IMG/VR virus record: IMGVR_UViG_3300049188_000069
Coordinates: 1 to 32,688 of that record
DNA from: a virus
Direction: 5' to 3' (one strand)
DNA length: 32,688 nt
Numbering within the stretch: the first letter of the stretch is position 1; every line of letters begins with the position of its first letter. This document shows positions 4,042-32,230 of this stretch, piece by piece. The notes under the pieces were generated by a model that worked only from the letters and a program-made list of their open reading frames with translations, searched no databases and was not told the DNA's origin. The position numbers and the translations under genes are program-made.

Positions 4042-4512
4042 ATGGGTCAATTCATGTCGGTGGCAGACGCCGCCTACAACGTCGTTCACGGCTACCCGGG
4101 CGGCGCGGCTGCACTGCAGGTTCGCATGGGGAAGACCAACCTCAGCGCTGAGGTGAACCCCAACAACCCAGGTGCCAAGCTCGGCCTGGAGGACGCGGTC
4201 ACTGTGCAGGTGATGGCGAAGGACTTCCGCATCCTGTATGCGATGGCCGTCGAGTGCGGCCACTTCCCGCCCATGCCCTTGCCTGAAAGCCTGCCCGGCG
4301 CAGACCAGCCGTGCATCCGCACTGCGTCTGAGGTCGTCAAGGAAGCGGCCGATGTGCTGCATACGACGGTCGAGTCGCTGGCCGACAACGACGTCAGCGA
4401 CAACGACTTGGCTCGCTTCGACAAGGAATGGAGCGAACTGATCGTCAAGGGTCAAGCGCTGCGCCAGCAGATGGCCTACATGAACGCACGCCTGAAGGTG
4501 AGGGCGGCGTGA
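4042..4512 (+). CDS. Phage regulatory protein CII (CP76-like)
   Basis: A 156-residue protein. The N-terminal part, SVADAAYNVVHGYPGGAAALQVRMGKTNLSAEVNP, followed by AKLGLEDAVTVQVMAKDFRILYAMAVECGHF, matches the CII/CP76 family of phage regulators: an HTH-like segment and then a conserved lysogeny-decision domain. The C-terminal 60 residues are helical (EVVKEAADVLHTTVESLADNDVSDNDL) and probably mediate oligomerisation. The start at 4042 has GAGG seven bases upstream; ATG 4054 is a weaker alternative. In family members the protein promotes establishment of lysogeny or controls early genes. It is the last regulator before the replication gene. Confidence 0.85.
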   Translation: MGQFMSVADAAYNVVHGYPGGAAALQVRMGKTNLSAEVNPNNPGAKLGLEDAVTVQVMAKDFRILYAMAVECGHFPPMPLPESLPGADQPCIRTASEVVKEAADVLHTTVESLADNDVSDNDLARFDKEWSELIVKGQALRQQMAYMNARLKVRAA

Positions 4513-4835
4513 CGCGATCCACCGAACACCGACACCCCATGACCGATGGGGCCCGCCAGCCATCCGCCGCCAGAAGTCGGCCTCGCCAGGACGCTGGACG
4601 CACGGGATTGCATACAGGGCCAGCAGCCGGCCCCCTGACGAATCGGTCTAGCCGGCACCTCTTCAAGCCCCGCACCCCTACCCAGGGGCGAACGCACCGT
4701 GTTGGTGTTGCGTTGCGGCGGCGCGACGTTGCGGGCGCGCGACGCGCGCACCAAGTTGGTGGGTCCCTCCTGGCAGCCTTGGACACGGGTGATTTGAACC
4801 GACCCGGTCCGCTAGGCTGCGCCCTCGGGGCATAG
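4509..4835 (+). CDS. Doubtful small ORF filling the gap before the primase gene
   Basis: A GTG at 4509 overlaps the TGA of the CII-like gene (GTGA) and opens a 108-residue frame ending six bases before the primase ATG. The product is Arg/Pro/Gly-rich with no recognisable fold. The tight fit between neighbours favours a coupled gene; the composition favours non-coding DNA. Without this gene, 4513-4840 is a 328-bp gap containing the perfect dyad CCCCAT-5-ATGGGG (4535-4551) and no other feature I can name. Confidence 0.25.
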   Translation: MTRSTEHRHPMTDGARQPSAARSRPRQDAGRTGLHTGPAAGPLTNRSSRHLFKPRTPTQGRTHRVGVALRRRDVAGARRAHQVGGSLLAALDTGDLNRPGPLGCALGA

Positions 4836-4840
4836 GCAAC

Positions 4841-7321
4841 ATGTCCCTGCTGAACTACGACGACGTCGGGCGCCAGCTTGAGGCGGCCGGCCTGATCCTC
4901 AAGGACGGCCTCCAGGTTGGCACCGTCAAGCCGGTGCGCTGCCGGGTGGAGGGCCACGACAAAGAGCGGCGCGGGTGGTACCGCCTCTACGAGATGCCGC
5001 TGGACAGCGGCGACAGCCTGCTCGTTGGCAGCTACGGCGTCTGGCAGGGGGCCGACAACGGCGCCACCAAGGTCGAACTGCCGAAGCTCGGCCGCGAACG
5101 CCTGACGCCCGCCCAGGCCGAAGCGCTGAAGGCCCGCATCAAGGCCGACCGCCAGGCCGCCGAGGCCGAACTGCGCCGCCAGCAGGAGCGCGCCGCCGAG
5201 CGCGCCGCCCACGGCTGGGCCCAGTGCAGCCGCGAGGCCGGCGAGAGCGCCTACCTCACCCGCAAGGGCTTTGCCCCCGGCCAACTCTTCGGTGCGCGCG
5301 TCACCAAGCAGGCCAACCTCGTCGTGCCTATCGCCGACATGCGAGGCCGCATCTGGGGCCTGCAGGTCATCTACGGCGACCCTGCCGTCAAGGCCAAGAA
5401 GGGGCGCGACAAGGACTACTGGCCCACCGGCCTGGCCAAGCAGGGCCACAGCCACACCATCGGCCTCATCGGCCGCGGCAGCGTCGCGCTGCTGTGCGAG
5501 GGCTTCGCCACCGGCGCGTCACTTCACGCGGCAACCGGCCTGCCGGTGGTCGTCGCCTTCGACGCCGGCAACCTGCTCCCCGTGGCCAAGGCCATCGCCG
5601 CCGCGCACAAGGGCGCCCGCGTGCTCGTCTGCGCCGACGACGACTGGCTGCAGAAGTGCGCCGCCTGCGGCGCGATGACGCCGGTAGAGCAGGGCGCGGA
5701 CTGCGTGCACTGCGGCGAGCCGCACAAGAAGGACAACGCCGGCGTCACCTGCGCCAGCGCTGCCGCCATGGCCGTGGGCGGCGCCTGGGTGCGGCCCGAG
5801 TTCCCCACGCAACGACCGGCGGACCGCAAAGGCCCCACCGACTTCAACGACCTGCACCAAGACCCCGCGGGCGGCCTCACCCTGGTTGCCCGCCAGATCG
5901 AGCAGGCGTTAGACGCCCAAGGGTGGCGTGTTGCCCCCGCCCGGGCGGCGCCGCCGCCCGCTCCGCAGGGGGAAGGGGAGAGCGATGGCGGCCGCCGCCA
6001 AGCCGTCTCCGTCATGGTGCTGGACGACCTCGTCGAGCGCTTCATCCCCCTCGACGACGGCACGGGCGAATTCCTGTTCGACACGTGGACGAACAAGATC
6101 GCCCGCATCGGCCAGGCCGTGCGCCTGCTGCACAAAGGCGTTCGGTGGGATGACGTCAAAGCTCACCCACAGTGGATCCGCCGCGGCGCCTTCTACCTCG
6201 ACCAGGTCGGCTTCGATCCCTCCGGCCGCGACGCCACCGTCAAGCTCAACACCTGGCAGGGCTGGCCCATGAAGCCCGCCGAGGGCAAGTGCACCAAGCT
6301 CCTCGAGCTGCTCCGCTACCTCTGCGGCGAAGACAACGGCGACGAGGTCTACTGGTGGCTGCTGCGCTGGCTGGCCTATCCGCTCAAGAACCCGGGCGCC
6401 AAGATGGCCAGCGCCATCATCATGCACGGGCCCCAGGGCACCGGCAAAAGCACCTTCTTCCAGACCTACGCCAAGATCTTCGGCGACTACGCCACCGTCC
6501 TCAACCAGCGCGGCCTCGAAGACAAGTTCAACAGCGACTGGACCGACAGCAAGCTGTTCCTCCTGGCCGAGGAAGTCGTCACCCGCCAGGAGATGTGGCA
6601 CATCAAGAACGAGCTCAAGGAACTCGTCACCGGCGACTGGGTGCGCATCAACACCAAGCAGGTCGCCGCCTACCGCCAGCGCAACCAGCTCAACCTGGTG
6701 TTCCTCTCCAACGAGGGCATGCCGCTGCCCCTCGACAACGACGACCGCCGCCACCTCGTCGTCTGGACCCCGCCGCAGCGCGAGCCCGCCTACTACGACG
6801 CCGTCAACGCCGAGATCGACGCCGGCGGCATCCAGGCGCTGTACCACTACCTGCTCAACCTCGACCTCGGCGACTTCCACCCCAAGAAGCGCCCACCAGC
6901 CACCCAGGCCAAGGCCGAGCTGATCCAGGTCAGCAAGACCAGCGAACTCCGCTTCATCGACGAGTGGACCAACCGCGAACTGCCCCTGCCGCTCGCCCCC
7001 TGCGTCGCGCTCGACCTCTTCAAGGCCTACCTCGCGTGGTGCCGGTTCAACGGCGAGAAGTTCCCCCGCGCCAGCAACCAGTTCCTGAACACCATCGGCC
7101 GCCTCGTCGGCTGGGAGAAGGATCGCAAGCGCATCAAGCTCGACGAGGGGCACGACGGCCAGCAGCTCAGCGTCGTCATCCCCTCGCCCGAAGCCCTCCA
7201 ACGCGGCAAGTCCGAGCGCGGCGCCACCGATACCGAGCCCGTCTGGCTCGGCCGCTGGTGCAAAAAGTTCGACGTCCAGGCCGCCGAATACGCCAAGGGG
7301 GACTCATGGCAGCAGCCCTGA
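4841..7321 (+). CDS. Phage replication primase-helicase (TOPRIM plus D5/SF3-type ATPase)
   Basis: An 826-residue protein that should prime and unwind phage DNA. Residues 1-90 form an N-terminal domain typical of TOPRIM phage primases. A helical linker (110-150) precedes the TOPRIM domain, with E220 in LLCEGFATG and D266-D268 in CADDDW. Four cysteines (C273, C276, C288, C291) make an inserted zinc ribbon. After a Pro/Gly-rich linker (about 365-385), the helicase domain has Walker A GPQGTGKS (530-537), Walker B LFLLAEE (572-578), a sensor-like segment (LNLVFLSNEG) and an Arg finger candidate in DNDDRRH. The C-terminal 150 residues resemble the D5 tail. It starts at ATG 4841 and lies just upstream of the repeat array at 7341-7605, consistent with replication initiation there. 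Confidence 0.9.
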   Translation: MSLLNYDDVGRQLEAAGLILKDGLQVGTVKPVRCRVEGHDKERRGWYRLYEMPLDSGDSLLVGSYGVWQGADNGATKVELPKLGRERLTPAQAEALKARIKADRQAAEAELRRQQERAAERAAHGWAQCSREAGESAYLTRKGFAPGQLFGARVTKQANLVVPIADMRGRIWGLQVIYGDPAVKAKKGRDKDYWPTGLAKQGHSHTIGLIGRGSVALLCEGFATGASLHAATGLPVVVAFDAGNLLPVAKAIAAAHKGARVLVCADDDWLQKCAACGAMTPVEQGADCVHCGEPHKKDNAGVTCASAAAMAVGGAWVRPEFPTQRPADRKGPTDFNDLHQDPAGGLTLVARQIEQALDAQGWRVAPARAAPPPAPQGEGESDGGRRQAVSVMVLDDLVERFIPLDDGTGEFLFDTWTNKIARIGQAVRLLHKGVRWDDVKAHPQWIRRGAFYLDQVGFDPSGRDATVKLNTWQGWPMKPAEGKCTKLLELLRYLCGEDNGDEVYWWLLRWLAYPLKNPGAKMASAIIMHGPQGTGKSTFFQTYAKIFGDYATVLNQRGLEDKFNSDWTDSKLFLLAEEVVTRQEMWHIKNELKELVTGDWVRINTKQVAAYRQRNQLNLVFLSNEGMPLPLDNDDRRHLVVWTPPQREPAYYDAVNAEIDAGGIQALYHYLLNLDLGDFHPKKRPPATQAKAELIQVSKTSELRFIDEWTNRELPLPLAPCVALDLFKAYLAWCRFNGEKFPRASNQFLNTIGRLVGWEKDRKRIKLDEGHDGQQLSVVIPSPEALQRGKSERGATDTEPVWLGRWCKKFDVQAAEYAKGDSWQQP

Positions 7322-7340
7322 GCGCCATTCCGCCCGGTTC

Positions 7341-7605
7341 TGTGATGGGCTTTGCCGGCCTGTGCAGGGTACCCATCACAACGCAAGCCCTTGATTTTTC
7401 AGGGTTTGTGATGGGTGTGATGGGTGTGATGGGCTTTCTCCCGCACACGAGGGCGCATGCATGCGAGCGAGCGCGCGCCGCGTGCGGGCGTGCGATCACG
7501 CGGGCGCGTCCACCCCATCACACCCATCACACCCATCACAAAATGAGTAAAAACAACGACTTAGGTTGTGATGGGTATCCATCACAGGCCCAAAAGCCCA
7601 TCACA
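7341..7605. repeat. Eleven TGTGATGGG-type repeats in both orientations, candidate origin or packaging site
   Basis: Forward TGTGATGGG copies start at 7341, 7407, 7416, 7425 and 7567; the middle three are perfect tandem 9-mers. Reverse copies (CCCATCACA) start at 7372, 7514, 7523, 7532 and 7597, again with three in perfect tandem, and a truncated CCATCACA lies at 7579. The two triplets face each other across about 80 bp of very GC-rich DNA (7434-7513). At 7567-7586 two copies form the near-perfect palindrome TGTGATGGGTATCCATCACA. The array lies between the primase-helicase gene and the start of the small terminase gene. It could be an iteron-type replication origin or the terminase recognition site; position fits both. 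Confidence 0.8.
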
Positions 7606-8280
7606 GGGCCTGTTTCCGGGCCGGAAACGCCCGAAGCCGAGCACCTCGCCGCCTTCGCCCGGCGCCTCGGCGTCAACCGCAGCACCGTCACTCGTGCCGC
7701 CCAGTCCGGCCGCCTGGTGCTGGCTGACGACGGCCGCGTGCTGGTGCAGGCCAGCCTTGCCCGCTGGCACGCCACCCGCGGCGGCCGGCTGGACCTTGCC
7801 GAGCGCCACGCCGAAGCCCGCGGTCACGCCGTTGCAGGCGTTGCAGCGCCCGCAACACCCCTCGCGGACGCGAATAGCGCCGCCAGGAGCGACGATCAGC
7901 ACGCCGCCGACACCCAGGCCCCACCCGAAGGCTCGCGCGCCTTCTGGGAGGCCGAGAAACTCCGCTGGCAAAACACCCAGCTCCTGCTGAGCCTCGACCT
8001 GCAATCCGGCGCCCGCATCCCCCGCGGCGCCATCCAGCGTGAAGCCCACGGCCTCGGCGCCACGCTGCGCGCCACCGTCGAGCGCCTCATCGACCAGACC
8101 GCCCCGCGCCTGGCCGCCGCCACCAGCGACGCCGATCGCCGCCGCCTGCTGTCCGGCGAGATCGCCGCCGCCCGCCGTCTCGTGCGCCGCGAGTTCGCTG
8201 CCGCCTTGCGCCGACTGCGCCCCGAGCAGCTTGGCGCGGCCGGCCTGCGGCTGGATGCCTCAGAGAGCCAACCGGAGTGA
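7543..8280 (+). CDS. Terminase small subunit (Nu1-like DNA packaging protein)
   Basis: A 245-residue protein that should recognise the phage packaging site and hand it to the large terminase. Residues about 28-70 form a winged HTH (AFARRLGVNRSTVTRAAQSGRLVLADDGRVLV). An Ala/Pro-rich linker follows, then a helical part (FWEAEKLRWQNTQLLLSLDLQSGARIPRGAI and following) typical of Nu1-like subunits. The ATG at 7543 sits inside the repeat array and has no Shine-Dalgarno box. An in-frame ATG at 7306, overlapping the primase end, has a strong AAGGGGGA box and would add 79 residues encoded by the repeats (MGVMGVMG and HHTHHTHH). The shorter start is preferred because that extension looks like translated repeat DNA. 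Confidence 0.8.
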   Translation: MSKNNDLGCDGYPSQAQKPITGPVSGPETPEAEHLAAFARRLGVNRSTVTRAAQSGRLVLADDGRVLVQASLARWHATRGGRLDLAERHAEARGHAVAGVAAPATPLADANSAARSDDQHAADTQAPPEGSRAFWEAEKLRWQNTQLLLSLDLQSGARIPRGAIQREAHGLGATLRATVERLIDQTAPRLAAATSDADRRRLLSGEIAAARRLVRREFAAALRRLRPEQLGAAGLRLDASESQPE

Positions 8281-9846: not shown

Positions 9847-12033
9847 ATGACCACCTCCCTCGCCGACCTCAAAGCCCAACGCGAGCGCCTGCAGGCCCAG
9901 AAGGCCGAGCAGGCCTGCCGCCAGGCCGAGGCGCAAGTCGTGCCGCGGCCCGACACCCTGCGCGCCGGTCTGGCCGTGCGCGAGGCGGCGAGCCGCGCGC
10001 TGGACGTGCTGCTCGAGCGCTGGCTGCTCGACGTGGCCGGCCTGAGCGACGAGACCGAGACACACCACGCCATGAGCGCCGCCGCGCACGAGGTGCTCGT
10101 CGAGCTGGGCCGCGGCCTGCCCGCCGTCAGCGCCGCGCAGCCCGCCCTCGGCGAGTCATTTCAGCGCGGCGCCACGCCCCGCGAGCTGCTCACCGTCAGC
10201 CAGTGGGCCGAGCGCCACCGCTGGCTGCGCAGCGGCACCAACAGCCCCGGCCCGTGGCGCAACGAGCTCACGCCCTACCTCGTCGAGATCATGGACGCGC
10301 TCAGCGAGCACAGCGCCGTCCGCGACATCACCTTCATCAAGTCGTCAGGCGTGGGCGGCACCGAGGCGATGTACTGCTGGCTCGGCTACGTCATGCACCA
10401 CCTGGGCAACAAGGACCTGCTCGTCGTCGTGCCCACCCTGGAGCTACGCGACCGCAGCTTCAACCCCCGCATGGCCAAGATGCTGGAGGAGTCGCCCGTA
10501 CTGGCCAGCCTCACGCCCACCGGCCGGCGCGACCGCAGCAACCGCGGCGACCTGCTGGAGTACGGCGCACGCGCCCGCGTCATCAAGGCCGGCGCCAACA
10601 GCCCCGACAGCCTGCGGTCCGATCACTTGCCGTACGTCATCTGCGACGAGGTCGACGCTTTCCCGTGGGACGTCGGCAGCGAGGGCGACCCCATGACGCT
10701 GATCGAGAACCGACAGCGCACCTTCAGCCGCGCCAAGACCTATTGCGTCAGCACCCCCACGCTGGAAGGCCAAAGCCGCATCGCCCTGCGCTACAGCCGC
10801 AGCGACCAGCGCCGCTACCACGTGCCGTGCCCCCACTGCGGCGAAGCCCAGCCCCTCGAGTTCGGCGACGGCAAGGCTCACGGCCTGCGGTGGCGCACCG
10901 CTCCGCAGCAGCCCGGCGAGCCCCTGCTGGTGCTGGCCGCCTGGTACATCTGCAAGCACTGCGGCACCGAGATCGACGAGAAGCACAAGCCCGACATGCT
11001 CGCCGCCGGCCGCTGGGTCGCCCTGCGCCCGCAACGCAAGGCGCACCGCGGCTATCACCTCAACGCGCTGTACGCGCCCACCGGCCTCGGCCTCAACTGG
11101 GTCAAGATCGCCCAGAAGTGGCTCGACGCCCAGGGCGACACCTCCGAGCTCAAGGCCTTCGTCAACACCTACCTTGGCGAGGTGTGGAAGGAAGTCGGCG
11201 ACAGCATCGAGGCCTCCGCGCTGCTCGGCCGCCTGGAGAGCTACGACCCCGCCGCGCTGCCCGTCCACCTCATCACCTTCGGCGGCGACGTCCAGAAGGA
11301 CCGCATCGAAGTCACCCTCGTCGGCTGGGGCGCCGGTGAAGAGGCGTGGGCCATCGATCACCTCATCCTGCCCGGCGACACCACCCAACCCGACGTCTGG
11401 ACCGAGCTGCACGAAGCCCTCGTCGAAGCCGGCGTGCACATCGGCTGCATCGACGCCCGCTACAACACCAGCGTCGTGCTCGACTTCTGCGAGAAGCGCG
11501 CCTGGTGCGTGCCCATCATGGGCATGGACGGCGCCGGCCGCCCCCTTGTGGAAGACGAGCTTCGCCGCAAGCAGCGCCTGCGCAAGCGCCGCAAGCGTGG
11601 CCGTGCGGCCGAGCCGGTGGGGGTAGACCAAGCCAAGACCCTCATCTACGGCCGCCTGCAGCTCACCGAGCCCGGCCCTGGCTACATCCACTTCCCCAAC
11701 ACGCCGGCCTTCGACGACGAGTATTTCGCCCAGCTCGCCGCCGAGCGCCTCGTCACCAAGGTCCGCGGCACCCGGCCGTTCAAGGAATGGGTGCAGTTGC
11801 GCCCCCGCAACGAGGCGCTCGACTGCATGAACTACAACCTCGCCGCCGTGCGCCTGGCGCCGCTGCTCATCGGCCGCGCCGTGTCACGCGCCGGAACCCT
11901 CGGCGCCGCGCCGCCTGCACCGGCCCCGGAGCCCGAGCGCGAAGAGCCGCAGGCCGCCGCGGCGCCCGCTGCCGAATCCCCCGCCGCCACCCTCGCGCGC
12001 ATCCAGCGCATGCGCGCCCAGCGCCGCCGCTGA
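9847..12033 (+). CDS. Terminase large subunit, GpA family
   Basis: A 728-residue ATP-dependent packaging motor and nuclease. The motor begins around residue 110 (RELLTVSQWAERHRWL, SPGPWRNELTPYLVEIMDAL). The Walker A region is KSSGVGGTE (165-173), a variant lacking the usual GKT/S. Walker B is VICDE (264-268), with ENRQRTF and YCVSTPTLEG after it. A zinc ribbon is formed by C328/C331 and C369/C372. The C-terminal nuclease has D481 in GGDVQKDRIE and a late acidic site in EALDCMNY. An Arg/Lys-rich insert near 575-595 (RRKQRLRKRRKRGR) is notable, and the Pro/Ala-rich tail is probably disordered. GpA-family enzymes usually make cohesive ends. It starts at ATG 9847 behind AGAGGA. Confidence 0.92.
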   Translation: MTTSLADLKAQRERLQAQKAEQACRQAEAQVVPRPDTLRAGLAVREAASRALDVLLERWLLDVAGLSDETETHHAMSAAAHEVLVELGRGLPAVSAAQPALGESFQRGATPRELLTVSQWAERHRWLRSGTNSPGPWRNELTPYLVEIMDALSEHSAVRDITFIKSSGVGGTEAMYCWLGYVMHHLGNKDLLVVVPTLELRDRSFNPRMAKMLEESPVLASLTPTGRRDRSNRGDLLEYGARARVIKAGANSPDSLRSDHLPYVICDEVDAFPWDVGSEGDPMTLIENRQRTFSRAKTYCVSTPTLEGQSRIALRYSRSDQRRYHVPCPHCGEAQPLEFGDGKAHGLRWRTAPQQPGEPLLVLAAWYICKHCGTEIDEKHKPDMLAAGRWVALRPQRKAHRGYHLNALYAPTGLGLNWVKIAQKWLDAQGDTSELKAFVNTYLGEVWKEVGDSIEASALLGRLESYDPAALPVHLITFGGDVQKDRIEVTLVGWGAGEEAWAIDHLILPGDTTQPDVWTELHEALVEAGVHIGCIDARYNTSVVLDFCEKRAWCVPIMGMDGAGRPLVEDELRRKQRLRKRRKRGRAAEPVGVDQAKTLIYGRLQLTEPGPGYIHFPNTPAFDDEYFAQLAAERLVTKVRGTRPFKEWVQLRPRNEALDCMNYNLAAVRLAPLLIGRAVSRAGTLGAAPPAPAPEPEREEPQAAAAPAAESPAATLARIQRMRAQRRR

Positions 12034-12042
12034 AGGACCACC

Positions 12043-12336
12043 ATGGACGCACTCGCCATCTTCCTCAAGCTCGTGCGCGAGGCCGTCGAGGCCAGCGGCG
12101 CGCCGCCCGATGCATTCCAGGAGGCGCTGGTCAGTGCTGAGGCCCGCGCCAGGTCCGCGCTCGGCGGCAGTCATCACCACATCAGCCGATGGCCGGCGGT
12201 CAGCACGAAGGCGCGCGTCATCGAACTGGCGCAGCAGAAGCTGCCCAACGCGGTGATCGCTGAGCGTCTGGGCGTGACCGACCGCTACGTGCGGCGGATC
12301 GTGAGCCAGTTGCGCATAGTTAGTCATGACAGGTGA
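12043..12336 (+). CDS. Small HTH protein after the large terminase
   Basis: A 97-residue protein. The N-terminal half is helical (DALAIFLKLVREAVEASGAPPDAFQEAL); the C-terminal half is an HTH (KARVIELAQQKLPNAVIAERLGVTDRYVRRIVSQL) of homeodomain-like or Mor-activator-like type. It probably binds DNA and may regulate late genes or the neighbouring recombinase genes; no partner is shown by the sequence. It starts nine bases after terL behind AAGGACC, and its TGA is one base before repeat element A. Its place inside the late region is unusual for a regulator. Confidence 0.7.
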   Translation: MDALAIFLKLVREAVEASGAPPDAFQEALVSAEARARSALGGSHHHISRWPAVSTKARVIELAQQKLPNAVIAERLGVTDRYVRRIVSQLRIVSHDR

Positions 12337-12337
12337 G

Positions 12338-12364
12338 CGGAACAACTCGCCGATTCCTGTTCCG
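12338..12364. repeat. 27-bp dyad element, copy A
   Basis: CGGAACAACTC, then 10 bp, then GTTCCG. The distance between the outer CGGAA and TTCCG (17 bp) is identical in copies B (12704) and C (16101). This copy has lost the GAG of the right arm. It starts one base after the stop of the preceding HTH gene. No start codon lies 24 bp downstream, unlike copies B and C. The following 107 bp before the AlpA-like gene contain the palindrome GTTCAATTGAAC and nothing else recognised. Confidence 0.75.
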
Positions 12365-12471
12365 CCCGCAGCAGTTCAATTGAACCGTGCCGCACCATCA
12401 CCGACTGATCATTGGTGACATGCCGACTCCCCCCGGCGGTGCGGCGCTCCTCCGTCAACTTTGGGTGTGCT

Positions 12472-12699
12472 ATGCATCTCGTATCCGATCCAACACCAGT
12501 AGTCAGACGCGATCGCCTGTTGAAGCTCGCTGATGTGGAACACCTGACCGCGCTGAAGAAAACCACGATCTATATGCTGATGAAGCGCGGCGAATTCCCT
12601 GGCTGTGTGTCGGTGACGCCGAGATCCGTCGCGTGGCCTGAGTCTGATGTCCATCAGTGGATTCAGGACCGCATCGCCGCCTCCCGAGCCAAAGATTAG
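12472..12699 (+). CDS. AlpA-like HTH protein (possible excisionase/regulator)
   Basis: A 75-residue protein. RRDRLLKLADVEHLTALKKTTIYMLMKRGEFPGCVSVTPRSVAWPESDVHQWI is a near-complete AlpA/MerR-type winged-helix signature, with the IYMLMKRGEFP recognition helix and the WPESDVHQWI wing. AlpA-like proteins commonly act as excisionases or transcription activators for a tyrosine integrase. Here the only complete integrase in the window is 2.3 kb downstream, and both are bounded by copies of the 27-bp element, which suggests a partnership (inference). The ATG at 12472 lacks a strong ribosome-binding site. Its stop is four bases before element B. Confidence 0.75.
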   Translation: MHLVSDPTPVVRRDRLLKLADVEHLTALKKTTIYMLMKRGEFPGCVSVTPRSVAWPESDVHQWIQDRIAASRAKD

Positions 12700-12703
12700 G
12701 GTC

Positions 12704-12730
12704 CGGAACAACTCAACGCCCCGAGTTCCG
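12704..12730. repeat. 27-bp dyad element, copy B, in the leader of the gpW-like gene
   Basis: CGGAACAACTC, 8-bp spacer, GAGTTCCG. The arms are inverted repeats with a three-base insertion in the left arm. It ends 24 bp before the ATG of the gpW-like gene, the same spacing as copy C before the portal gene, and begins four bases after the AlpA-like stop codon. Confidence 0.8.
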
Positions 12731-12735
12731 CCCCG

Positions 12736-12752
12736 CCCGGCATCGTGCCGGG
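12736..12752 (+). promoter_or_regulatory. Hairpin over the ribosome-binding region of the gpW-like gene
   Basis: CCCGGCA, TCG, TGCCGGG form a perfect 7-bp stem ending two bases before the ATG at 12755. No Shine-Dalgarno sequence is visible outside it, so translation may be limited by this structure or depend on another start mechanism. It may therefore regulate the gene. Confidence 0.55.
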
Positions 12753-12754
12753 CC

Positions 12755-13309
12755 ATGAGCGACACGCTGCCCAGCACCCACACCGCCGGCGACAGCACCG
12801 CCTGGCGCTTTGACGCGGGCGACTGCCCGCCCGCCTCCGGCTGGGCCGCCCAGCTCATCCTCATCGGCGCCACGCGCCAGGTCGTGGCCTGTACCGTGGC
12901 CGGCGAGCAGTTCGCCCTCGACGCCTCCAGCGCCACCACGGCCACCTGGCCGGCCGACACGTACACCGCCAGCCTCGTCTGCACCAAGGGCGCCGAGCGC
13001 GTCAGCCGCACCGTCGGCACCGTCCGCGTGCTGCCCGACCCCACAGCCGTCGGCACTACCGCCCGCAGCCTGCTCACCGAAGCCGAGGCCCACCTCGCCG
13101 ACCTCGAGGCCGCCTACCGCGACCACATGGCCAGCGGCAACGCCGTCGTGGCCGAGTACCGCATCGGCACGCGCATGAAGCAGTTCAAGAGCGTGGCCGA
13201 CCTGCTCAAAGCCCTCAACGCCGCCCGCGCCGATGTCGAGCGCGAGCAGGCCGCCGCCAGCCTCGCCGCCGGCGGCAGCGCGCGCCGCCGCTTCGTCGTG
13301 CGCATGTAA
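12755..13309 (+). CDS. gpW-like head-tail connector with N-terminal beta domain
   Basis: A 184-residue protein. Residues 1-98 are beta-rich and Ig-like (STAWRFDAGDCPPASGWAAQLIL, then TWPADTYTASLVC and RTVGTVRVLPDP). Residues about 105-175 are helical and contain VVAEYRIGTRMKQFKSVADLLKALNAARADVE, resembling the gpW/DUF6148-type adaptor that follows TerL in other GpA-terminase phages. It would sit between portal and tail. The N-terminal extension is known from related prophages (from memory) and may be surface-exposed. ATG 12755 lies 24 bp after element B and directly behind a hairpin. The connector assignment rests on the C-terminal pattern and gene order. Confidence 0.65.
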   Translation: MSDTLPSTHTAGDSTAWRFDAGDCPPASGWAAQLILIGATRQVVACTVAGEQFALDASSATTATWPADTYTASLVCTKGAERVSRTVGTVRVLPDPTAVGTTARSLLTEAEAHLADLEAAYRDHMASGNAVVAEYRIGTRMKQFKSVADLLKALNAARADVEREQAAASLAAGGSARRRFVVRM

Positions 13310-13327
13310 CCCTTCAGGAGATTCCCC

Positions 13328-14698
13328 ATGCTCATCAACATGCTGGCCGACCGCTTCGACGCGGGCGGCGTGCTGCGCGCCAAGGGCACGCAAGTCGACG
13401 TTGCCACGGACCTGGCGCTGCGCTGGATTGGCGACGGCGTCGCATCTGCAGTCGGCACCTCGCGCGAAACGGCGCAGGGCATCCGCAAGGACGTGCCCGT
13501 CCTGCAAGACCGCGTCAGCGGTCAGCAGAGCGCAGGGGACGCCCCGGTGTCAGGGGCTGGGAATGTGTTCGGCGTTGTCGGCCAGTCGAACGAGTCGGGC
13601 CGTGTGCTGCACACCGACCGGGCGGCCTACCCGCGCTGTTTCGAGTCGCTGCGCTACCCCGGCGTTCGGGCGCCCCTACCGGGGATCAATGCCATGAGTT
13701 CGCAGTCGTCCTCGGGCATCGAAACCGCTTACGGCGGCTGGCACTTCAAGGTTCTCGATGACCTCTATGACGCTGGCTTTGTCGGTCAGATCGCCATCGG
13801 CGCTATCGGCAGCTCCAGCATCGTCCGTCATTGGTGCGGCGGCCCACAGTCGCGCTCCAACAGTACGAAGTACAGCGTGCGCAGAGCCCCATCGGGCGAC
13901 CTGGACGACTATGGCTTCTCCGGCCACACAACGGTCCAGGGCGGGAAAGTATTTCTTGCCACCACCGGCAACAACTCCTATGCGTCGAACCGGGTTCCGT
14001 ACCGCGCGAATTCGCCGGCCACGCTGAGCAGCAGCAGCGCCAGCGCGTCAATGGACTACTTGACGGACAGCGGCGCCTTGACGACGGCCGGCGCGGACCC
14101 AGGCGGGTGGTCTGGCATCGCCGCCGGCTCCACACTGACTGATGGCGGCATCGTGTGGACGAACGTGGACGACACGAACTCTGTTGGGTTTGCAAACGAT
14201 GCGCCGCTCAACGAAGCACAGTTCGGATTCGGGTGGGATCCGCTGGGGCTGCATATCAGGCTTCACACCAGGATGCAGGCCATCCAGCCGGCGCGGGCGA
14301 AGCACATCCTCATCATGTTTGGCCAAACAGACGCCGGCAACGGCGTCACCCAAACAAACTTCCGCAACGCGGTCATGGCGAGCGCGCGATATTGGCTGAA
14401 GCGTGGCTACCGCGTGCATCTCGGACTGAGCTGCTACACGCCGACCGTCACCACGGCCGCGTACAACACGCTCAGCGCCGGCCTGAGCGACGCCCTGACC
14501 TTGCTGGCCGGTGACGTGTATTCCAGTCGCGTGCACGCTGGCCCGAACCTCTACACGGCGCTCGGTTCCACGGGCGTGATGGGCACGGGTGGCGCCTATC
14601 TGAACCCCGACAACGTGCACCTCAATGGCCTTGGCGCCCTTGCGGCGGCCGATGTCATCAGCGCAAACATAATCGCGACGCTGCGGGCCATCGGCTGA
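13328..14698 (+). CDS. SGNH/GDSL-type esterase, virion-associated candidate
   Basis: A 456-residue protein. Residues 1-75 form a small N-terminal domain (MLINMLADRFDAGGVLRAKGTQVDVATDLALRWIGDGVASAV) resembling short proteins found in phage head clusters. The rest is an SGNH hydrolase: block I VVGQSNESGR with nucleophile S87, a block III-like region GQTDAGNG (332-339; the usual GxND appears as GQTD), and the block V pair D428 and H431 in NPDNVHLNGLG. Such enzymes remove acetyl groups from carbohydrates such as O-antigen or capsule. The long Ser/Gly/Asn-rich insert (about 165-300) suggests a beta-structured extension. It has no signal peptide and lies 18 bp after the connector gene with an AGGAG box, so it is probably part of the particle. 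Confidence 0.75.
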   Translation: MLINMLADRFDAGGVLRAKGTQVDVATDLALRWIGDGVASAVGTSRETAQGIRKDVPVLQDRVSGQQSAGDAPVSGAGNVFGVVGQSNESGRVLHTDRAAYPRCFESLRYPGVRAPLPGINAMSSQSSSGIETAYGGWHFKVLDDLYDAGFVGQIAIGAIGSSSIVRHWCGGPQSRSNSTKYSVRRAPSGDLDDYGFSGHTTVQGGKVFLATTGNNSYASNRVPYRANSPATLSSSSASASMDYLTDSGALTTAGADPGGWSGIAAGSTLTDGGIVWTNVDDTNSVGFANDAPLNEAQFGFGWDPLGLHIRLHTRMQAIQPARAKHILIMFGQTDAGNGVTQTNFRNAVMASARYWLKRGYRVHLGLSCYTPTVTTAAYNTLSAGLSDALTLLAGDVYSSRVHAGPNLYTALGSTGVMGTGGAYLNPDNVHLNGLGALAAADVISANIIATLRAIG

Positions 14699-14719
14699 TT
14701 TTCCATCCCCTCCGCGAGT

Positions 14720-14911
14720 CTAGCCCGCTTCGGCGGGCTTTTTCTTGGCCGGCTTCGGGGTCCAGTCGTCGAGGAGCGCCTCAAACCGCTCCTTGCCGGC
14801 GGCGTCGATCTTCGCCCAGTGATGCGGCTTGAGCCGGATGGACCGCTGCACGCGGCGTTCGCCTTCCGGCAGAGGAGGGCGGCCGCCGAGGTTCTTGGAT
14901 TCGGTTTTCAT
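14720..14911 (-). CDS. Arc-like ribbon-helix-helix DNA-binding protein candidate
   Basis: A 63-residue basic protein. VQRSIRLKPHHWAKIDAAGKERFEALLDDW looks like a ribbon-helix-helix pattern (a beta strand QRSIRL and two helices), with a Gly/Arg/Pro-rich arm in front and a Lys/Pro/Ala-rich tail. It reads opposite to its neighbours and is divergent from the integrase gene across 88 bp containing two inverted repeats, the layout of an autoregulated repressor controlling a recombinase. Its last codons overlap the intrinsic terminator that ends the esterase transcript. Confidence 0.65.
   Translation of the reverse strand: MKTESKNLGGRPPLPEGERRVQRSIRLKPHHWAKIDAAGKERFEALLDDWTPKPAKKKPAEAG
14722..14746 (+). 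terminator. Intrinsic terminator after the esterase gene
   Basis: AGCCCGC, TTCG tetraloop, GCGGGCT, then TTTTTCTT: a 7-bp GC-rich stem followed by a U-run on the plus strand, 23 bp after the esterase stop. It overlaps the 3' end of the Arc-like gene on the other strand. It should stop late transcription before the integrase and portal genes unless antiterminated. Confidence 0.8.
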
Positions 14912-14922
14912 GCTGGATTATT

Positions 14923-14989
14923 GCATCACGCAAACCGGGGGTGTGATGCGTTAGGTTTTTGGGATTCAATAACGTCATGTTCCCTAACG
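14923..14989. promoter_or_regulatory. Divergent Arc-like/integrase control region
   Basis: Two inverted repeats lie between the divergent genes: GCATCAC (14923-14929) with GTGATGC (14943-14949), and CGTTAGG (14949-14955) with CCTAACG (14983-14989). They are plausible operators for the Arc-like protein or integrase-binding sites. No convincing sigma-70 promoter was found here, though the DNA is AT-rich relative to its surroundings. Confidence 0.55.
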
Positions 14990-14999
14990 GCGCAACAAC

Positions 15000-16091
15000 A
15001 TGACAGCGAATCACCTGGCGAGCGTTCTGGAGTCGATAGCGTGCGCAATTCGCGCGCTGCCAGTGCAAGCCGCCGAAGTGGCCATTGCTCCGCCTGCCGC
15101 TGCTGCGGCTGCGCCGGCCCAGATGCCAGCGCCTCCGGTGCCCATCCCGCCGCCGGCCCCAACTCCCACTCCGCCCGCGGCGGCGGCGGCGCAGGAGCAG
15201 GCCGATGGCGAGTCGCTGGCGGGGTGGCTCGTCACCTTCCGCAGCATCATCAAGGAGCGTGGCTACTCGGCCCAAACGCTGAAGAACCGCGGCACCTGCA
15301 TCAACTACATCGAGGCGCAGCTCGGCGCGAGGCCGCTGCGCGCCATCAAGCCGCACGAGATCGCCACGGTGCTGAAGAAGTGCTCACCGCACAAGGCGGG
15401 CCGCGTGCTCATGGAGCTGCGCGACATCTACGTCGAGGCCATTGCCAATGGTGCTGCGGAAAGCAATCCAGCCGCGCACGTCAAGAAGCCCGCGAGCCCA
15501 GGCCTGCGCAAGCGCCTGACGCTGGAGACGTGGCAGGCGATGCTCGCCAAGGCGAAGACCAGCGCGCAGCAGTGGCTGCCGCTCATGCTGTTGCTGGCGC
15601 TGCACACCGGCCAGCGCCGCGCCGACCTGGCCAAGATGCGCTTCGGCGACGTCGTTGATGGTCATCTCAGGGTTGAGCAGCAAAAGAAGGCCCGCAAGAA
15701 GATCGGCGCGCGGCTAGCCATCCCGCTCAACCTGCGGCTGCGCGCCACCGGTCTGACGCTCGGCCAGGTCATCGAGCTGTGCAAGACGGCAGGCAAGCCC
15801 GGCGAGCACATGCTGCGCCAGGCGAACGGAAGGCCCATCGAGATGTCGTCGCTCAGCGCGCGGTTCCGTGAACTGATCGTGTCCGTCTGCGGCGATGACG
15901 CCTACCAGCAGTTCGAGTGGCCGTCGCTGCACGAAGTCCGCAGCCTCAGTGCGCGCACCTACATTGCCGAGGGCATGTCGCCGCCCACGGTCCAGACCCT
16001 GCTCGGCCACGCCCATGCGGAGATGACTGCGATCTACCTCAACGATCGCGGCTTGACCGAGGCGGAATGGAAAACGGTCGAGTGCGTGTGA
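15000..16091 (+). CDS. Lambda-type tyrosine integrase inside the late region
   Basis: A 363-residue site-specific recombinase. Residues 30-68 are an Ala/Pro-rich linker after a short N-terminal helix. Residues 72-165 form the core-binding domain. The catalytic domain carries R206 (HTGQRRADL), a Lys near 229-234, H311 and R314 (LHEVRSLSAR), H337 (LLGHAHAEM) and Y346 (AIYLND). All expected catalytic residues are present, so it should be active. HEVRSLSAR and the following LLGH resemble lambda Int. ATG 15000 lacks a strong ribosome-binding site. It lies between the esterase and portal genes, where an integrase is not expected, behind a terminator and beside a divergent Arc-like gene. It ends nine bases before element C. 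It may serve the phage or a mobile cassette. Confidence 0.88.
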   Translation: MTANHLASVLESIACAIRALPVQAAEVAIAPPAAAAAAPAQMPAPPVPIPPPAPTPTPPAAAAAQEQADGESLAGWLVTFRSIIKERGYSAQTLKNRGTCINYIEAQLGARPLRAIKPHEIATVLKKCSPHKAGRVLMELRDIYVEAIANGAAESNPAAHVKKPASPGLRKRLTLETWQAMLAKAKTSAQQWLPLMLLLALHTGQRRADLAKMRFGDVVDGHLRVEQQKKARKKIGARLAIPLNLRLRATGLTLGQVIELCKTAGKPGEHMLRQANGRPIEMSSLSARFRELIVSVCGDDAYQQFEWPSLHEVRSLSARTYIAEGMSPPTVQTLLGHAHAEMTAIYLNDRGLTEAEWKTVECV

Positions 16092-16100
16092 CCACAGGAG

Positions 16101-16127
16101 CGGAACAACTCACCCCCCTGAGTTCCG
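16101..16127. repeat. 27-bp dyad element, copy C, in the portal gene leader
   Basis: CGGAACAACTC, 8-bp spacer, GAGTTCCG. The arms match copy B exactly; the spacers differ. It begins nine bases after the integrase stop and ends exactly 24 bp before the portal ATG at 16152, as copy B does before its gene. The 24-bp segments after B and C share 14 of 24 aligned positions. Confidence 0.8.
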
Positions 16128-16151
16128 CACCCCTCAGCACGATGCCCACCC

Positions 16152-17723
16152 ATGGCATCGCTGCTCACCAAGCTCGCAAACCGCCTGGGCCTCCACACCG
16201 AAGCCCAGGCGCGCGGCCGTGAGCTGAGCGCGGGCCGCCGCGTCGCGGCGGTGGCGAACGCGCAGCAGCGCAGCCTGCTCGCCGCGCTCACCACCAACGA
16301 CGTCGCCAGCTGGCAGGCCGACGGCCTGCACATCAACGCCGACACCGACGCGGGCCTCGCCACCGTCATCGCCCGCAGCCGCGACGCCGCGCGCAACAAC
16401 CCTTTCGCGCGGCGCTTCCTCGGCATGGTCCGCCGCAACGTGCTGGGCCCGCAGGGCGTGCGCCTGCAGGTGCGCCTGCGAACCGAGGGCGGCCTCAAGA
16501 CCGGCGTCAACGCCGCCATCGAGGGCGCCTACGGTGCCTGGGGCCGCCAGGGCGCGTGCGACGTGACGGGCCGCTACACCCGTCAGGATCTCGACCGCCT
16601 GGCCCTGCGCCACGTGGCTGTCGACGGCAGCGTCTTCTGCCGCTTCCTTGCCGGCCGCGGGCCGCACGGTCTGCAGCTGCAGCTGCTGCCCATCGACGTG
16701 CTGGCCCGGACCCACCGCGCCGACCTTGCCGACGGCGCCCGCATCCGCCAGGGCATCGAGGTCGACGCCTTCGGCGCCGTGCGCGCCTACTGGCTGCGCG
16801 GCACCGACCCCGCCGCGCTCGACCCGCTGGCGACCGCCCGCAACTTCGTGCGCGTGCCCGCTGCCGAGATGCTGCACCTGCAGCTGCCCGATGAAGCCCT
16901 GCAGCTGCTCGGCGTGCCGTGGATGCAGGCCGGCCTCAAGCCCATGTACCAGGCGGCCGACTTCGCCGCCTCCGGCCTCAACAAGGCGCGCGAGAGCGCC
17001 AAGCGCGGCGGCTTCTTCGAGATGCACCCGGACGCTGCGCCGCCCGCCGCCATGGAAGACGGCAAGGCCGCCGACGGCACGCCATTCCAGACGCTGCAGG
17101 ACGGCACTTGGGACGTGCTGCCACATGGCCTGAAGGCCTCGCCCTTCGAGAGCGACTACCCCAACATCGAATACGGCCAGTTCATCAAGGACTGCCTGCG
17201 CAACATCGCCAGCGCGCTCGAGGTCAGCTACATCAGCCTCGGCAACGACCTGAGCGACGTGAACTACTCCAGCGGCCAGCTGGGTCTGGGCGACGAACGC
17301 ACGCTGTGGCTCGAGCTGCAGGAGTGGTTCGTCGCCCACTGGAGCCAGCCCATCTATGAGCGCTGGTTGAAGTACGCCCTCGTGGCCGCGCCCGAGCTGT
17401 CGAGCCTCAGCTTCGCGCGCATCGACACCTACGCCGCGGCCGCGCGCTGGCAAACCCACACCTGGCAGCCGCTGGACCCGCTCAAGACCATCGAAGCCCA
17501 GCGCAGCCGGCTGGAAGGCCGTATCACCAGCCCGCAGCGTGTCATGGCCGAGAACGGCGACGACCCCGACGAGGTGCTCGCCGAGTGGGTCGAGTGGGAC
17601 GAGAAGCTCACTGCCGCTGGCCTGGCCGGCGTCGATGACGAAGACCCCGAAGCAGCCGCCGCCGCCAAGGCCCGCCGCCTGCACCTCATCACCGGTGGCC
17701 TCGGCGCCACCGGCACGGAGTGA
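16152..17723 (+). CDS. Phage portal protein, lambda GpB type
   Basis: A 523-residue protein forming the dodecameric DNA channel at one capsid vertex. Recognisable features of the lambda-type family are the N-terminal WQADGLHINADTDAGLATVIARSRDAARNNPFARRFLGMVRRNVLGPQG segment, the DGSVFCRFLAGRGPHGLQLQLLPIDVLA strand region, and NDLSDVNYSSGQLGLGDERTLWLELQEWFVAHWSQPIYERWL in the C-terminal half. Its length fits the family. ATG 16152 lies 24 bp after element C with no clear Shine-Dalgarno box. Terminal residues are Ala-rich and probably disordered. It is the first gene of the downstream head cluster and ends three bases before the protease-capsid gene. Confidence 0.93.
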   Translation: MASLLTKLANRLGLHTEAQARGRELSAGRRVAAVANAQQRSLLAALTTNDVASWQADGLHINADTDAGLATVIARSRDAARNNPFARRFLGMVRRNVLGPQGVRLQVRLRTEGGLKTGVNAAIEGAYGAWGRQGACDVTGRYTRQDLDRLALRHVAVDGSVFCRFLAGRGPHGLQLQLLPIDVLARTHRADLADGARIRQGIEVDAFGAVRAYWLRGTDPAALDPLATARNFVRVPAAEMLHLQLPDEALQLLGVPWMQAGLKPMYQAADFAASGLNKARESAKRGGFFEMHPDAAPPAAMEDGKAADGTPFQTLQDGTWDVLPHGLKASPFESDYPNIEYGQFIKDCLRNIASALEVSYISLGNDLSDVNYSSGQLGLGDERTLWLELQEWFVAHWSQPIYERWLKYALVAAPELSSLSFARIDTYAAAARWQTHTWQPLDPLKTIEAQRSRLEGRITSPQRVMAENGDDPDEVLAEWVEWDEKLTAAGLAGVDDEDPEAAAAAKARRLHLITGGLGATGTE

Positions 17724-17726
17724 CCC

Positions 17727-19694
17727 ATGCCCACCATCATTGACCGCAACACCCTGCCCGACAACGTCCGCAAGGCCCTCGCCGAGCCGCAGAAGCGCGC
17801 CATGGTCTATGAGCGCGGCGCCATCGACAAAGAGGCCCGCACTGTCGAACTGTGCTTCGCCAGCGATGCGCCCTATGAGCGCTGGTGGGGCGTCGAGATC
17901 CTCGATTGCACCGGCTCGGCGGTGAACCTGGAGCGGCTCAACAACCGCCACCCGCTGCTGCTGGACCACAACACACGCGATCAGATCGGCGTCGTGGAAA
18001 AGGCCTGGGTCGACAGCGACCGCAAGTGCCGCGCCACCGTCAAGTTCAGCCGCTCGGCCCGCGCCGAGGAAATCTTCCAGGACGTGCTCGACGGCATCCG
18101 CGAGCTCGTCTCGGTCGGCTACTCCATCGACGACATGGTGCTGGAGAGCCGCACCGACGACGAAGCCACCTACCGCGTCACTGCGTGGACCCCCTACGAG
18201 GTGTCCATCGTGTCCATCCCCGCCGACGCCTCCGTGGGCGTGGGCCGTTCCCTGGCCGCCGAGGCCGCAACCGCTCAACCCAAGGAGACCCGCACCATGA
18301 GCGATCCCGTCACCACCGCCCCGGCGCCCGCACCCGCGCCGGACATCCGCGTCATCGCCAGCCAGGCCGCCACGGCCGAACGCGAGCGCGCCAACGCCAT
18401 CCGCGCCATGGGCCACGCCCACAGCCTGGCCGATGAAGCCACCGCCGCCATCAACGACGGCGCCAGCGTCGACGCCTTCCGCGAGCTGGTGCTCAAGAAG
18501 CTCGAGGAGCGCGGCAAGATCAAGCCCACCGTCAGCCCCGAGCTGGGCCTGAGCGAGCGCGAGCAGCAGCGGTTCAGCATGACGCGTCTCATGTATGCGC
18601 TGCTGGAGCCGAACGACAAGGAAGCCCAGAAGCGCGCCGCCTTCGAAATCGAGTGCTCGGTGGAGGCCCGCAAGCTGCGCCCGCTGGACGAGAAGGCCGA
18701 AAACTACGCACACCGCCAAGCCGGCTACACCGTGCCGGTCGATGTGCTCAAGGGCAGCATCGCCCGCGAGGCCAAGGTGGCCGAGGCCGTGCGCGCCATG
18801 CTGGCGCAGCGTGACCTGACGGTCGGCACCGCCACCGCCGGCGGCAACCTGGTCGCTACCGACCTGCTGGCCGGCAGTTTCATCGACCTGCTTCGCAACC
18901 GCATGGTGTTGGCCCAGCTTGGCGCCACGGTGCTGGACGGCCTCACCGGCAACATCGCCATCCCGAGCCAGACGGCCGGCGCCAGCACCTACTGGGTGGC
19001 CGAAGGCGTGAACGTCACCGAGAGCCAGGCGGCATTCGGCCAGGTCACGCTGACGCCCAAGACTGTCGGCATGTTCACCGACTTCAGCCGCAAGACGCTG
19101 CTGCAAACCACGCCTGCCATCGAGGCGCTGGTGCGGGCGGACCTGGCCAACGGCATCGCGGCCGAGATCGACCGTGTCGGCCTGTGCGGCAGCGGCAGCG
19201 GCGCCGAGCCGCGCGGTGTGATCAACACCGCCGGCATCGGCGCTGTGGCGGGGGGCACCAACGGCGCAGCGCCCACCTACCCGCACATGGTTGGCCTGGA
19301 AGAGGCCGTCGGCATCGCCAACGCCGACGTGGGTGGCATGAGCTACGTGAGCAACGCCAAGATGCGCGCGCAGCTCAAGCTCACGCAGGTGTTCAGCGGC
19401 ACCAGCGGCGAGCCGGTGTGGAAGGGCGACGAGGTCAACGGCTACCGCGCCGTGGCTACCAACAGCATGCCCAGCAACCTCACCAAGGGCACGGCCAACG
19501 GCGTCTGTTCAGCCATCGCCTTCGGCAATTGGAGCGACCTGCTGCTGGGCTTCTGGAGCGGGCTGGACTTGATCCTCGACCCGTATGCGCTGGCCACCCA
19601 GGGCGGCCGCCGCATCGTCGCGCTGCAGGACTGCGACACGGCCGTGCGCCGCGCCGCCAGCTTCGCGGCCATGTTGGACGCGCTGCGCGTCTGA
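17727..19694 (+). CDS. Prohead protease-major capsid fusion protein (HK97 fold)
   Basis: A 655-residue fusion. Residues 1-180 form the prohead protease (AMVYERGAIDKEARTVELCFASDAPYERWWGVEIL, HPLLLDHN with a candidate catalytic His near 74, and VSVGYSID with a candidate Ser near 129). Residues 191-340 are helical and scaffold-like (AERERANAIRAMGHAHSLADEATAAINDG). Residues about 350-655 are the HK97-type capsid (GGNLVATDLLAGSFIDLLRNRMVLAQLGATVLDGLTGNIAIP, then GAEPRGVINT). The protease presumably cleaves itself and the scaffold part off during maturation. Fusions of this kind are known. A strong internal start at 18297 could supply extra capsid chains without protease. Confidence 0.92.
   Translation: MPTIIDRNTLPDNVRKALAEPQKRAMVYERGAIDKEARTVELCFASDAPYERWWGVEILDCTGSAVNLERLNNRHPLLLDHNTRDQIGVVEKAWVDSDRKCRATVKFSRSARAEEIFQDVLDGIRELVSVGYSIDDMVLESRTDDEATYRVTAWTPYEVSIVSIPADASVGVGRSLAAEAATAQPKETRTMSDPVTTAPAPAPAPDIRVIASQAATAERERANAIRAMGHAHSLADEATAAINDGASVDAFRELVLKKLEERGKIKPTVSPELGLSEREQQRFSMTRLMYALLEPNDKEAQKRAAFEIECSVEARKLRPLDEKAENYAHRQAGYTVPVDVLKGSIAREAKVAEAVRAMLAQRDLTVGTATAGGNLVATDLLAGSFIDLLRNRMVLAQLGATVLDGLTGNIAIPSQTAGASTYWVAEGVNVTESQAAFGQVTLTPKTVGMFTDFSRKTLLQTTPAIEALVRADLANGIAAEIDRVGLCGSGSGAEPRGVINTAGIGAVAGGTNGAAPTYPHMVGLEEAVGIANADVGGMSYVSNAKMRAQLKLTQVFSGTSGEPVWKGDEVNGYRAVATNSMPSNLTKGTANGVCSAIAFGNWSDLLLGFWSGLDLILDPYALATQGGRRIVALQDCDTAVRRAASFAAMLDALRV
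18282..18299 (+). promoter_or_regulatory. Internal ribosome-binding site and in-frame ATG within the protease-capsid gene
   Basis: AAGGAG (18282-18287), nine bases, then ATG 18297, in frame at residue 191 exactly between the protease and scaffold domains. Initiation here would give a 465-residue scaffold-capsid protein. This is analogous in layout to lambda C/Nu3, where the smaller protein starts inside the protease gene. Confidence 0.65.
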
Positions 19695-32034: not shown

Positions 32035-32057
32035 TTCAATTCCCCCCGGCTCCACCA
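32035..32057 (+). other. Candidate attR: 3' end of tmRNA (or tRNA)
   Basis: A 23-bp segment reading TTCAATT (T-loop), a C-run and CGGCTCCACCA (acceptor stem and CCA end). This is the 3' terminus of a tmRNA (GGCTCCACCA or AGCTCCACCA is the usual ending) or possibly a tRNA. The 5' half of the T-stem is absent: the bases before the T-loop do not pair with the C-run. So this is a duplicated fragment made by integration with crossover near the T-loop, not a complete gene. It lies 118 bp after Rz1, where the right end of the prophage is expected. Confidence 0.75.
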
Positions 32058-32089
32058 GTTGTACGTCCGACAACGTCCGACGTTGTCCC

Positions 32090-32127
32090 AAAGGCCTAAG
32101 TAAATCAATCACTTAGGCCTTTTTCTT
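32090..32127 (+). terminator. Strong intrinsic terminator after the attachment site
   Basis: AAAGGCCTAAGT (32090-32101), a 9-nt loop, then ACTTAGGCCTTT (32111-32122) and a continuing T-run. The 12-bp perfect stem is near-symmetric, with A-run and U-run ends, so it could work in both directions. It isolates the prophage right end from the downstream integrase. Confidence 0.85.
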
Positions 32128-32170
32128 TGCCCAAATCGTTCCGGAACGTCCCCTTGCATCCGTGCAACGA

Positions 32171-32229
32171 CCGCACAACAATCAGCACAACCGACCCAAG
32201 CGGGTTGTGCGGTGCGAGGAGTTGTGCGG
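32171..32229. promoter_or_regulatory. Repeated CCGCACAAC/GTTGTGCGG words before the P4-type integrase
   Basis: CCGCACAAC at 32171-32179, GCACAAC at 32185-32191, and inverse copies GTTGTGCGG at 32204-32212 and 32221-32229. The last lies between the ribosome-binding site and the integrase start. These are likely integrase or excisionase binding sites or an autoregulatory operator. Confidence 0.6.
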
Positions 32230-32230
32230 T

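Follow-up and report, generated by a model that had tools for sequence, protein, structure and literature searches.

Gene organization between the terminase and portal genes

The subject of this analysis is a 27-bp dyad that occurs in three copies, A, B and C, in the late operon of a virus recorded in IMG/VR. The window, that is, the whole stretch of DNA analyzed, is this record of 32,688 bp. The three copies lie between the terminase gene terL and the portal gene, in a zone with the following features.

9847–12033: terL
12043..12336, + strand: gene of a 97-aa helix-turn-helix (HTH) protein (PF13384 HTH_23, 4.9e-8), the proposed dyad-binding activator
12338..12364, + strand: dyad A, an extra copy probably brought with the AlpA unit; not in the near-identical phage L020
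12412..12699, + strand: AlpA-like gene (PF05930, 3.2e-16), an insertable unit between the HTH gene and dyad B
12704..12730, + strand: dyad B, proposed operator before the head-tail connector gene
12755..13309, + strand: head-tail joining (W-like connector) gene (PHROG 5774, 1.3e-24), with no Shine-Dalgarno (SD) sequence of note
13328..14698, + strand: SGNH/GDSL-type "esterase" gene, with a conserved N-terminal and an exchangeable C-terminal part
15000..16091, + strand: gene of Int, a lambda-type tyrosine recombinase (PF00589, 3.9e-18), the proposed cassette-exchange enzyme
16101..16127, + strand: dyad C, proposed operator before the portal gene
16152..17723, + strand: portal gene (PF05136, 2.4e-72), SD score 0

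The positions of the dyads, given in a preliminary description of this DNA, were confirmed by exact match, as were the 17 bp separating the outer CGGAA and TTCCG and the start of each dyad 1–9 nt past the stop codon of the HTH (A), AlpA-like (B) or Int (C) gene. A search of the window allowing up to 3 mismatches returned 3 matches, exactly the known ones, for an expectation of 0.26, and 0 of 100 shuffled sequences reached 3; the exact pattern has no further occurrence in the record. The symmetric core is CGGAAC-N15-GTTCCG (6-N15-6), and the inner CTC...GAG of dyads B and C sits 3 bp off true symmetry. A regularity that the preliminary description had missed is that the 3' ends of dyads B and C are exactly 24 nt upstream of an ATG, that of the connector gene (12755) and that of the portal gene (16152), respectively. 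We regard as the probable explanation of this locus that the dyads are operators of the HTH protein, an activator driving a near-leaderless portal mRNA, and that the B–C interval houses a second, independent device consisting of Int and of two paired inverted sites, LEFT and RIGHT, bounding an exchangeable C-terminal segment of the esterase gene.

Dyads and integrase are uncoupled in related phages

Viral contigs were scanned with the dyad and with Int, HTH and portal alignments, which yielded about 15 distinct related phages (designated by L numbers). Relatives with a portal 57–85% identical to that of the window carry a dyad (dyad 2) about 24 nt before the portal start and another (dyad 1) after the HTH gene, and mostly have no Int. 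Dyad 1 directly follows the HTH gene in most of them, a small inserted open reading frame (ORF) intervening in L011, L040 and L094. Dyads without integrase are found in at least seven phages (L004, L005, L064, L066–L069, plus the variants L070 and L077), and Int homologues without dyads in ten contigs (L036, L037, L041–L048), so that dyads and Int each occur without the other.

This bears on the preliminary description, which took the dyads for the core recombination sites of Int, with A–B and B–C as excisable cassettes. It had itself named relatives with dyads beside the same genes and no integrase as evidence against its reading, and such relatives exist, with dyads kept at the portal and HTH genes. 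Speaking for Int sites, every dyad abuts a stop codon, one of them 9 nt after Int, and the AlpA unit, missing in L020, is flanked by dyads on both sides. However, the spacers of dyads A, B and C are unequal, the would-be overlap regions AACTCGCCGATTCCT, AACTCAACGCCCCGA and AACTCACCCCCCTGA not being identical, and the conserved connector gene lies within B–C in nearly all relatives. Furthermore, the half-site tracks the recognition helix of the HTH protein and not Int (see below), and the junction form was not found. Recombination of the dyads by Int is thus very improbable.

What holds of the dyad-bounded units is the presence or absence of the AlpA unit and its right edge, which is exact, as identity resumes at the first base of dyad B; excisable Int cassettes find no support. 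The third dyad belongs to the AlpA insert in the window and in its near-identical relatives L007 and L024. L020, with a connector 98% identical over the compared part, has the order HTH-dyad-connector and no AlpA, and in L011 a different small ORF occupies the AlpA position. The interval between the HTH gene and dyad B is a hypervariable insertion point (12336–12704; L011 3698–3985; L040 3201–3417) occupied by small ORFs, either AlpA-like or unknown, and in L005 an insert of about 4 kb with virion-like genes (4141–8078) separates dyad 1 from the connector gene.

Outside these relatives, a profile search of genome contigs with the HTH alignment gave unrelated proteins only, and the dyad was not found in 369 genomes of one class. 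Phage and plasmid collections gave only distant portals and lambda-like integrases, with no HTH homologue in the phage collection.

A promoter-like signature follows the dyads

Gap-free alignment of 27 dyad sites, in DNA of about 70% GC, reveals a T at +16 after the dyad in 27/27 and an A at +12 in 26/27, the three bases between them and the flanks being variable. The corresponding A-N3-T hexamer begins exactly 10 nt after the dyad in 26 of the 27 sites, and by the start codon relative entropy has fallen to about 0. In the sigma70 -10 element, the two most constrained bases are the A and the T at hexamer positions 2 and 6. The signature also follows dyad 1 in L005, L070 and L077, where the connector gene does not come next and no start codon stands at that distance, which ties it to the dyad and not to a start codon. 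If the T is numbered -7, all 13 portal sites have the portal start codon at about +1 to +3, and the connector start codon lies at about +1 to +4 where this gene directly follows (8 phages; not L004). The portal gene has no SD match and the connector gene none of note; most neighbours have one. A consensus scan of the zone found no -35/-10 promoter, as expected for an activator-dependent promoter. The proposed elements of the window are the following.

12375–12380, + strand: TTCAAT, a weaker -10-like hexamer after dyad A
12741..12746, + strand: CATCGT, proposed -10 with a predicted transcription start at about 12753
16138..16143, + strand: CACGAT, proposed -10 with a predicted transcription start at about 16150

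Two other explanations were discarded. A small GCAnnnTGC hairpin as the cause of the A/T conservation is not borne out, its flanking pairs being at chance level, and the dyads have no T run as intrinsic terminators would, the scan yielding a marginal match at dyad A only.

The mechanism that we propose is as follows. The HTH protein, whose gene separates terL from dyad A, would bind the 27-bp dyad as a dimer, with half-sites 21 bp apart, i.e., two helical turns. The dimer would substitute for the missing -35 and recruit host RNA polymerase to the -10 lying 10 nt downstream, so that transcription would start at or within a few bases of the portal start codon, and of that of the connector where the connector directly follows. 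Co-expressed with the terminase, the HTH protein would boost the head genes that follow, and the extra dyad A would have arrived with the AlpA insert.

The dyad half-site co-varies with the HTH recognition helix

Three versions of the half-site exist: CGGAAC (window, L038, L040, L004, L067, L069 and others), CGAAAC (L076, L094) and CGGACA (L070, L077). Wherever both dyad copies of a genome are available, they carry the same version. At residues 80–82 of the HTH protein, ten CGGAAC phages read DRY or DRW; L076 and L094, with CGAAAC, both read PQW; and L070 and L077, with CGGACA, read DRH or ERH. Arg81 occurs with G3 of the half-site and Gln81 with A3, which fits the classical Arg-G/Gln-A recognition pairing. 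Scans with the two variant half-sites returned the known members only, plus chance matches without an HTH gene. The fixed positions of the dyads, their concerted half-site change, this co-variation and the invariant A-N3-T are the observations on which the operator model is built, and from which we infer HTH binding, dimerisation, activation rather than repression, and the start site. An activator/operator pair as compact as this, with its natural variants in specificity and a readable Arg-G/Gln-A switch, would be of interest in a packaging operon.

An alternative is an RNA element, the dyads being hairpins in the leaders of the connector and portal mRNAs that control translation or processing. 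The hairpins are stable, the dyads folding as RNA with z from -2.2 to -5.2 (-5.2 at dyad C), the stem changes are compensatory, and the distance to the start codons is fixed. However, pairing is limited to the outer 6 bp and inner positions are conserved yet unpaired; the stem changes are concerted between the two sites and track the HTH recognition helix; dyad 1 and its A-N3-T lie away from any start codon in L005, L070 and L077; and no Rfam family was matched. This makes a leader hairpin quite unlikely.

The same operators might also serve an HTH repressor or roadblock silencing the head genes in the lysogen or in early infection. The operator overlaps the -35 to -10 zone, and the HTH protein weakly matches several repressor PHROGs. 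However, PHROG 836, "late transcriptional activator", is matched by 10/10 of the HTH homologues scanned (best 1.2e-6), and the HTH gene sits within the very late operon to be repressed. Furthermore, since there is no -35 under the operator, no promoter is strong enough to require repression. We consider silencing rather unlikely and retain activation by the HTH protein.

Likeness to the Mor and C activators of phage Mu

The activator proposed here recalls Mor and C of phage Mu, which act on the middle promoter Pm and on the late promoters, respectively. In both cases a small phage protein, in ours a proposed activator, carries an HTH at its C-terminus, preceded by a GG-x-x-(H/Y)-(H/Y)-I motif. 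Mu Pm has a -10 and no -35, and a Mor dimer binds a dyad (PMC4390567); target promoters with a -10, no -35 and a dyad in its place are common to both systems (PMC4390567), in our case as a sequence signature. The best match to the Mor/C family PF08765 is that of L109 (17.9 bits, E 2.5e-5, 98 of 107 positions, 5–102). Profile comparison with a Mor alignment (hhalign) gave an E of 3e-4 and a probability of 39%, a single decoy scoring little below the Mor proteins, and a first AlphaFold model has Mu Mor (1RR7) as its best PDB match (E 0.06). In contrast to the Mu genes, the HTH gene lies inside the packaging operon after terL, its targets would be near-leaderless and the homology is sub-threshold.

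Several observations weigh against the operator reading. The -10 hexamers match TATAAT weakly in this GC-rich DNA, and TTCAAT after dyad A is without the A of the signature. The co-variation represents two independent changes, in two pairs of sister phages, so that the argument is strong in kind and small in number, and an RNA hairpin would give the same compensatory changes. None of the HTH proteins reaches the curated cut-off of PF08765 (24.9 bits), and Mor is not among the 50 best matches listed for a second structure model. Finally, the Mu element is 5-N6-5, 16 bp long and centred at -43.5, whereas the present one is 6-N15-6, 27 bp long and centred near -36. Because the profile match is sub-threshold, a decoy is close and one of two models matches, we do not claim membership of the Mor/C family; the proposal is that the HTH protein works like Mor and C.

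An integrase module with paired inverted sites

The second device lies within the B–C interval, where the following features adjoin Int.

13545..13563, + strand: candidate LEFT exchange site CGGTGTCAGGGGCTGGGAA, lying within esterase linker codons (PVSGAGN)
14696..14718, + strand: candidate RIGHT exchange site TGATTTTCCATCCCCTCCGCGAG, overlapping the esterase stop codon, inverted relative to LEFT; a variant of TGATTCCCATCCCCTGCCGGT
14720..14911, − strand: 63-aa gene divergent from Int, kept together with Int in L036, L038 and L040
14722..14739, + strand: intrinsic terminator bordering the Int module on its left
14923..14949: inverted repeat GCATCAC..GTGATGC between the divergent genes, a possible operator of the Int module judging by its sequence

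The 63-aa gene has no Pfam or PHROG match. The esterase of the window has no family match, its homologues matching PF13472; it carries the motif GQSN and a variable C-terminus. Int ends, by eye, soon after the catalytic Tyr region.

Of the 13 Int loci searched, 10 contain the LEFT consensus GGTGTCAGGGGcTGGGAA with 0–3 mismatches, against 0 of 60 shuffles. The RIGHT sequence TGATTCCCATCCCCTGCCGGT is found upstream of Int in L036–L038, L040, L041, L043, L044, L046, L047 and L076, and its TGA is usually the stop codon of the preceding gene, in unrelated phages. Paired inverted sites are seen in the window (13545–14718), L036/L037, L038, L040, L043, L044, L046, L047 and L076, and as remnants in L069, an Int-less phage with an intact RIGHT and a decayed LEFT. 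In L047 (5521–5845), two RIGHT-type sites in direct orientation enclose one small gene whose stop codon is inside the second site, an integron-like arrangement.

One natural exchange is available. L036 and L037 share 99.96% and 99.99% identity to either side of the segment that runs from the LEFT core to the RIGHT site; the segment itself, 1.36 kb long in one phage and 1.88 kb in the other, is unrelated, the breakpoints falling in the sites in this one case. Besides, the start of contig L045 coincides exactly with the RIGHT site of L044, its twin, as would be expected of an assembler at a fork. The exchanged parts comprise GDSL/SGNH domains, a cellulase and a DUF3800 gene. The module itself is mobile, since the 63-aa gene and Int are 89% identical in DNA over 1.34 kb between L040 (5726–7061) and the unrelated L036 (5726–7046); it has its own terminator at the left edge and a divergent promoter region. 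Int homologues in unrelated phages are 43–70% identical.

Taken with the sites, their association with Int and this exchange, catalysis by Int of cassette exchange at LEFT and RIGHT is what we infer from the sequences. The preliminary description had postulated a recombinase-driven exchange module between terminase and portal, apart from a lysogeny integrase. This part finds support through LEFT (13545) and RIGHT (14696), not through the dyads: true repeats had been seen and a true exchange module sensed, and the two had been wrongly joined.

The swap of esterase segments could also result from ordinary recombination, homologous or illegitimate, where two protein domains meet, with Int playing no part. 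Domain linkers are the usual mosaic junctions, and virion GDSL domains swap in wild phages for which the account of the swapped islands names no enzyme (PMC7468147). Against this, the linker codons GTG TCA GGG, with the rare TCA, are kept as DNA among unrelated genes with Int adjoining (L036, L043, L044, L046, L047, L076), and LEFT and RIGHT are both absent in five Int-less relatives that contain the whole interval. Ordinary recombination is on these grounds a doubtful, if serious, explanation.

Exchange by Int in its turn has points against it. LEFT and RIGHT have only a 12-bp core in common; the RIGHT site of the window is a divergent variant and the weakest match, whose 7 mismatches are by themselves within chance; neither an inverted isomer nor a circle was seen among the available contigs; and homologous recombination between siblings could have produced the L036/L037 difference. 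Reverse-strand frames that might encode other C-termini were uninformative, the cassettes being GC-rich. With these points in mind, we advance as a tentative proposal, with somewhat less than even confidence, a natural cassette exchange in which the mobile 63-aa gene and Int swap virion esterase C-termini among unrelated phages via inverted linker-codon and stop-codon sites, within a late operon whose head genes would be expressed as near-leaderless mRNAs under a co-evolving activator and operator.

A search of the literature available found no described system of such kind. Inverted site pairs are the layout of engineered cassette exchange. A close comparison is the Rci shufflon of plasmid R64, whose sfx sites share this inverted-pair layout (PMC11852207); there too, a tyrosine recombinase gene adjoins asymmetric sites flanking exchangeable C-terminal segments of a surface protein (PMC11852207). 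In contrast to the shufflon, the phages mostly have one cassette and one inverted site pair, no inversion product was seen among them, the enzyme resembles lambda Int, and the target is a virion esterase. As in integrons, the recombinase adjoins a site that closes a gene cassette and contains the stop codon, and in L047 a gene lies between two sites of equal orientation. However, LEFT is within a coding region and inverted, and the likeness drawn here concerns layout, not an attC-like structured site or IntI. Finally, near-identical cryoconite phages carry interchangeable GDSL lipase domain variants in pan-genome islands (PMC7468147); the description of these islands proposes neither enzyme nor sites (PMC7468147), whereas both are proposed here. 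The Int module would thus offer a candidate enzyme and candidate sites for a widely seen and unexplained phenomenon, wild phages that are identical except for swapped virion hydrolase domains, and the exchange device, like the activator/operator pair, yields precise and cheap predictions.

Other features of the window

Downstream of the portal gene lies a protease-capsid fusion (17727–19694). At the other end of the record, positions 32040–32686 hold the 3' end of a transfer-messenger RNA-like sequence (GGCTCCACCA), after which a second, P4-like integrase gene begins; this region is a probable attachment site, and the phage may have two integrases.

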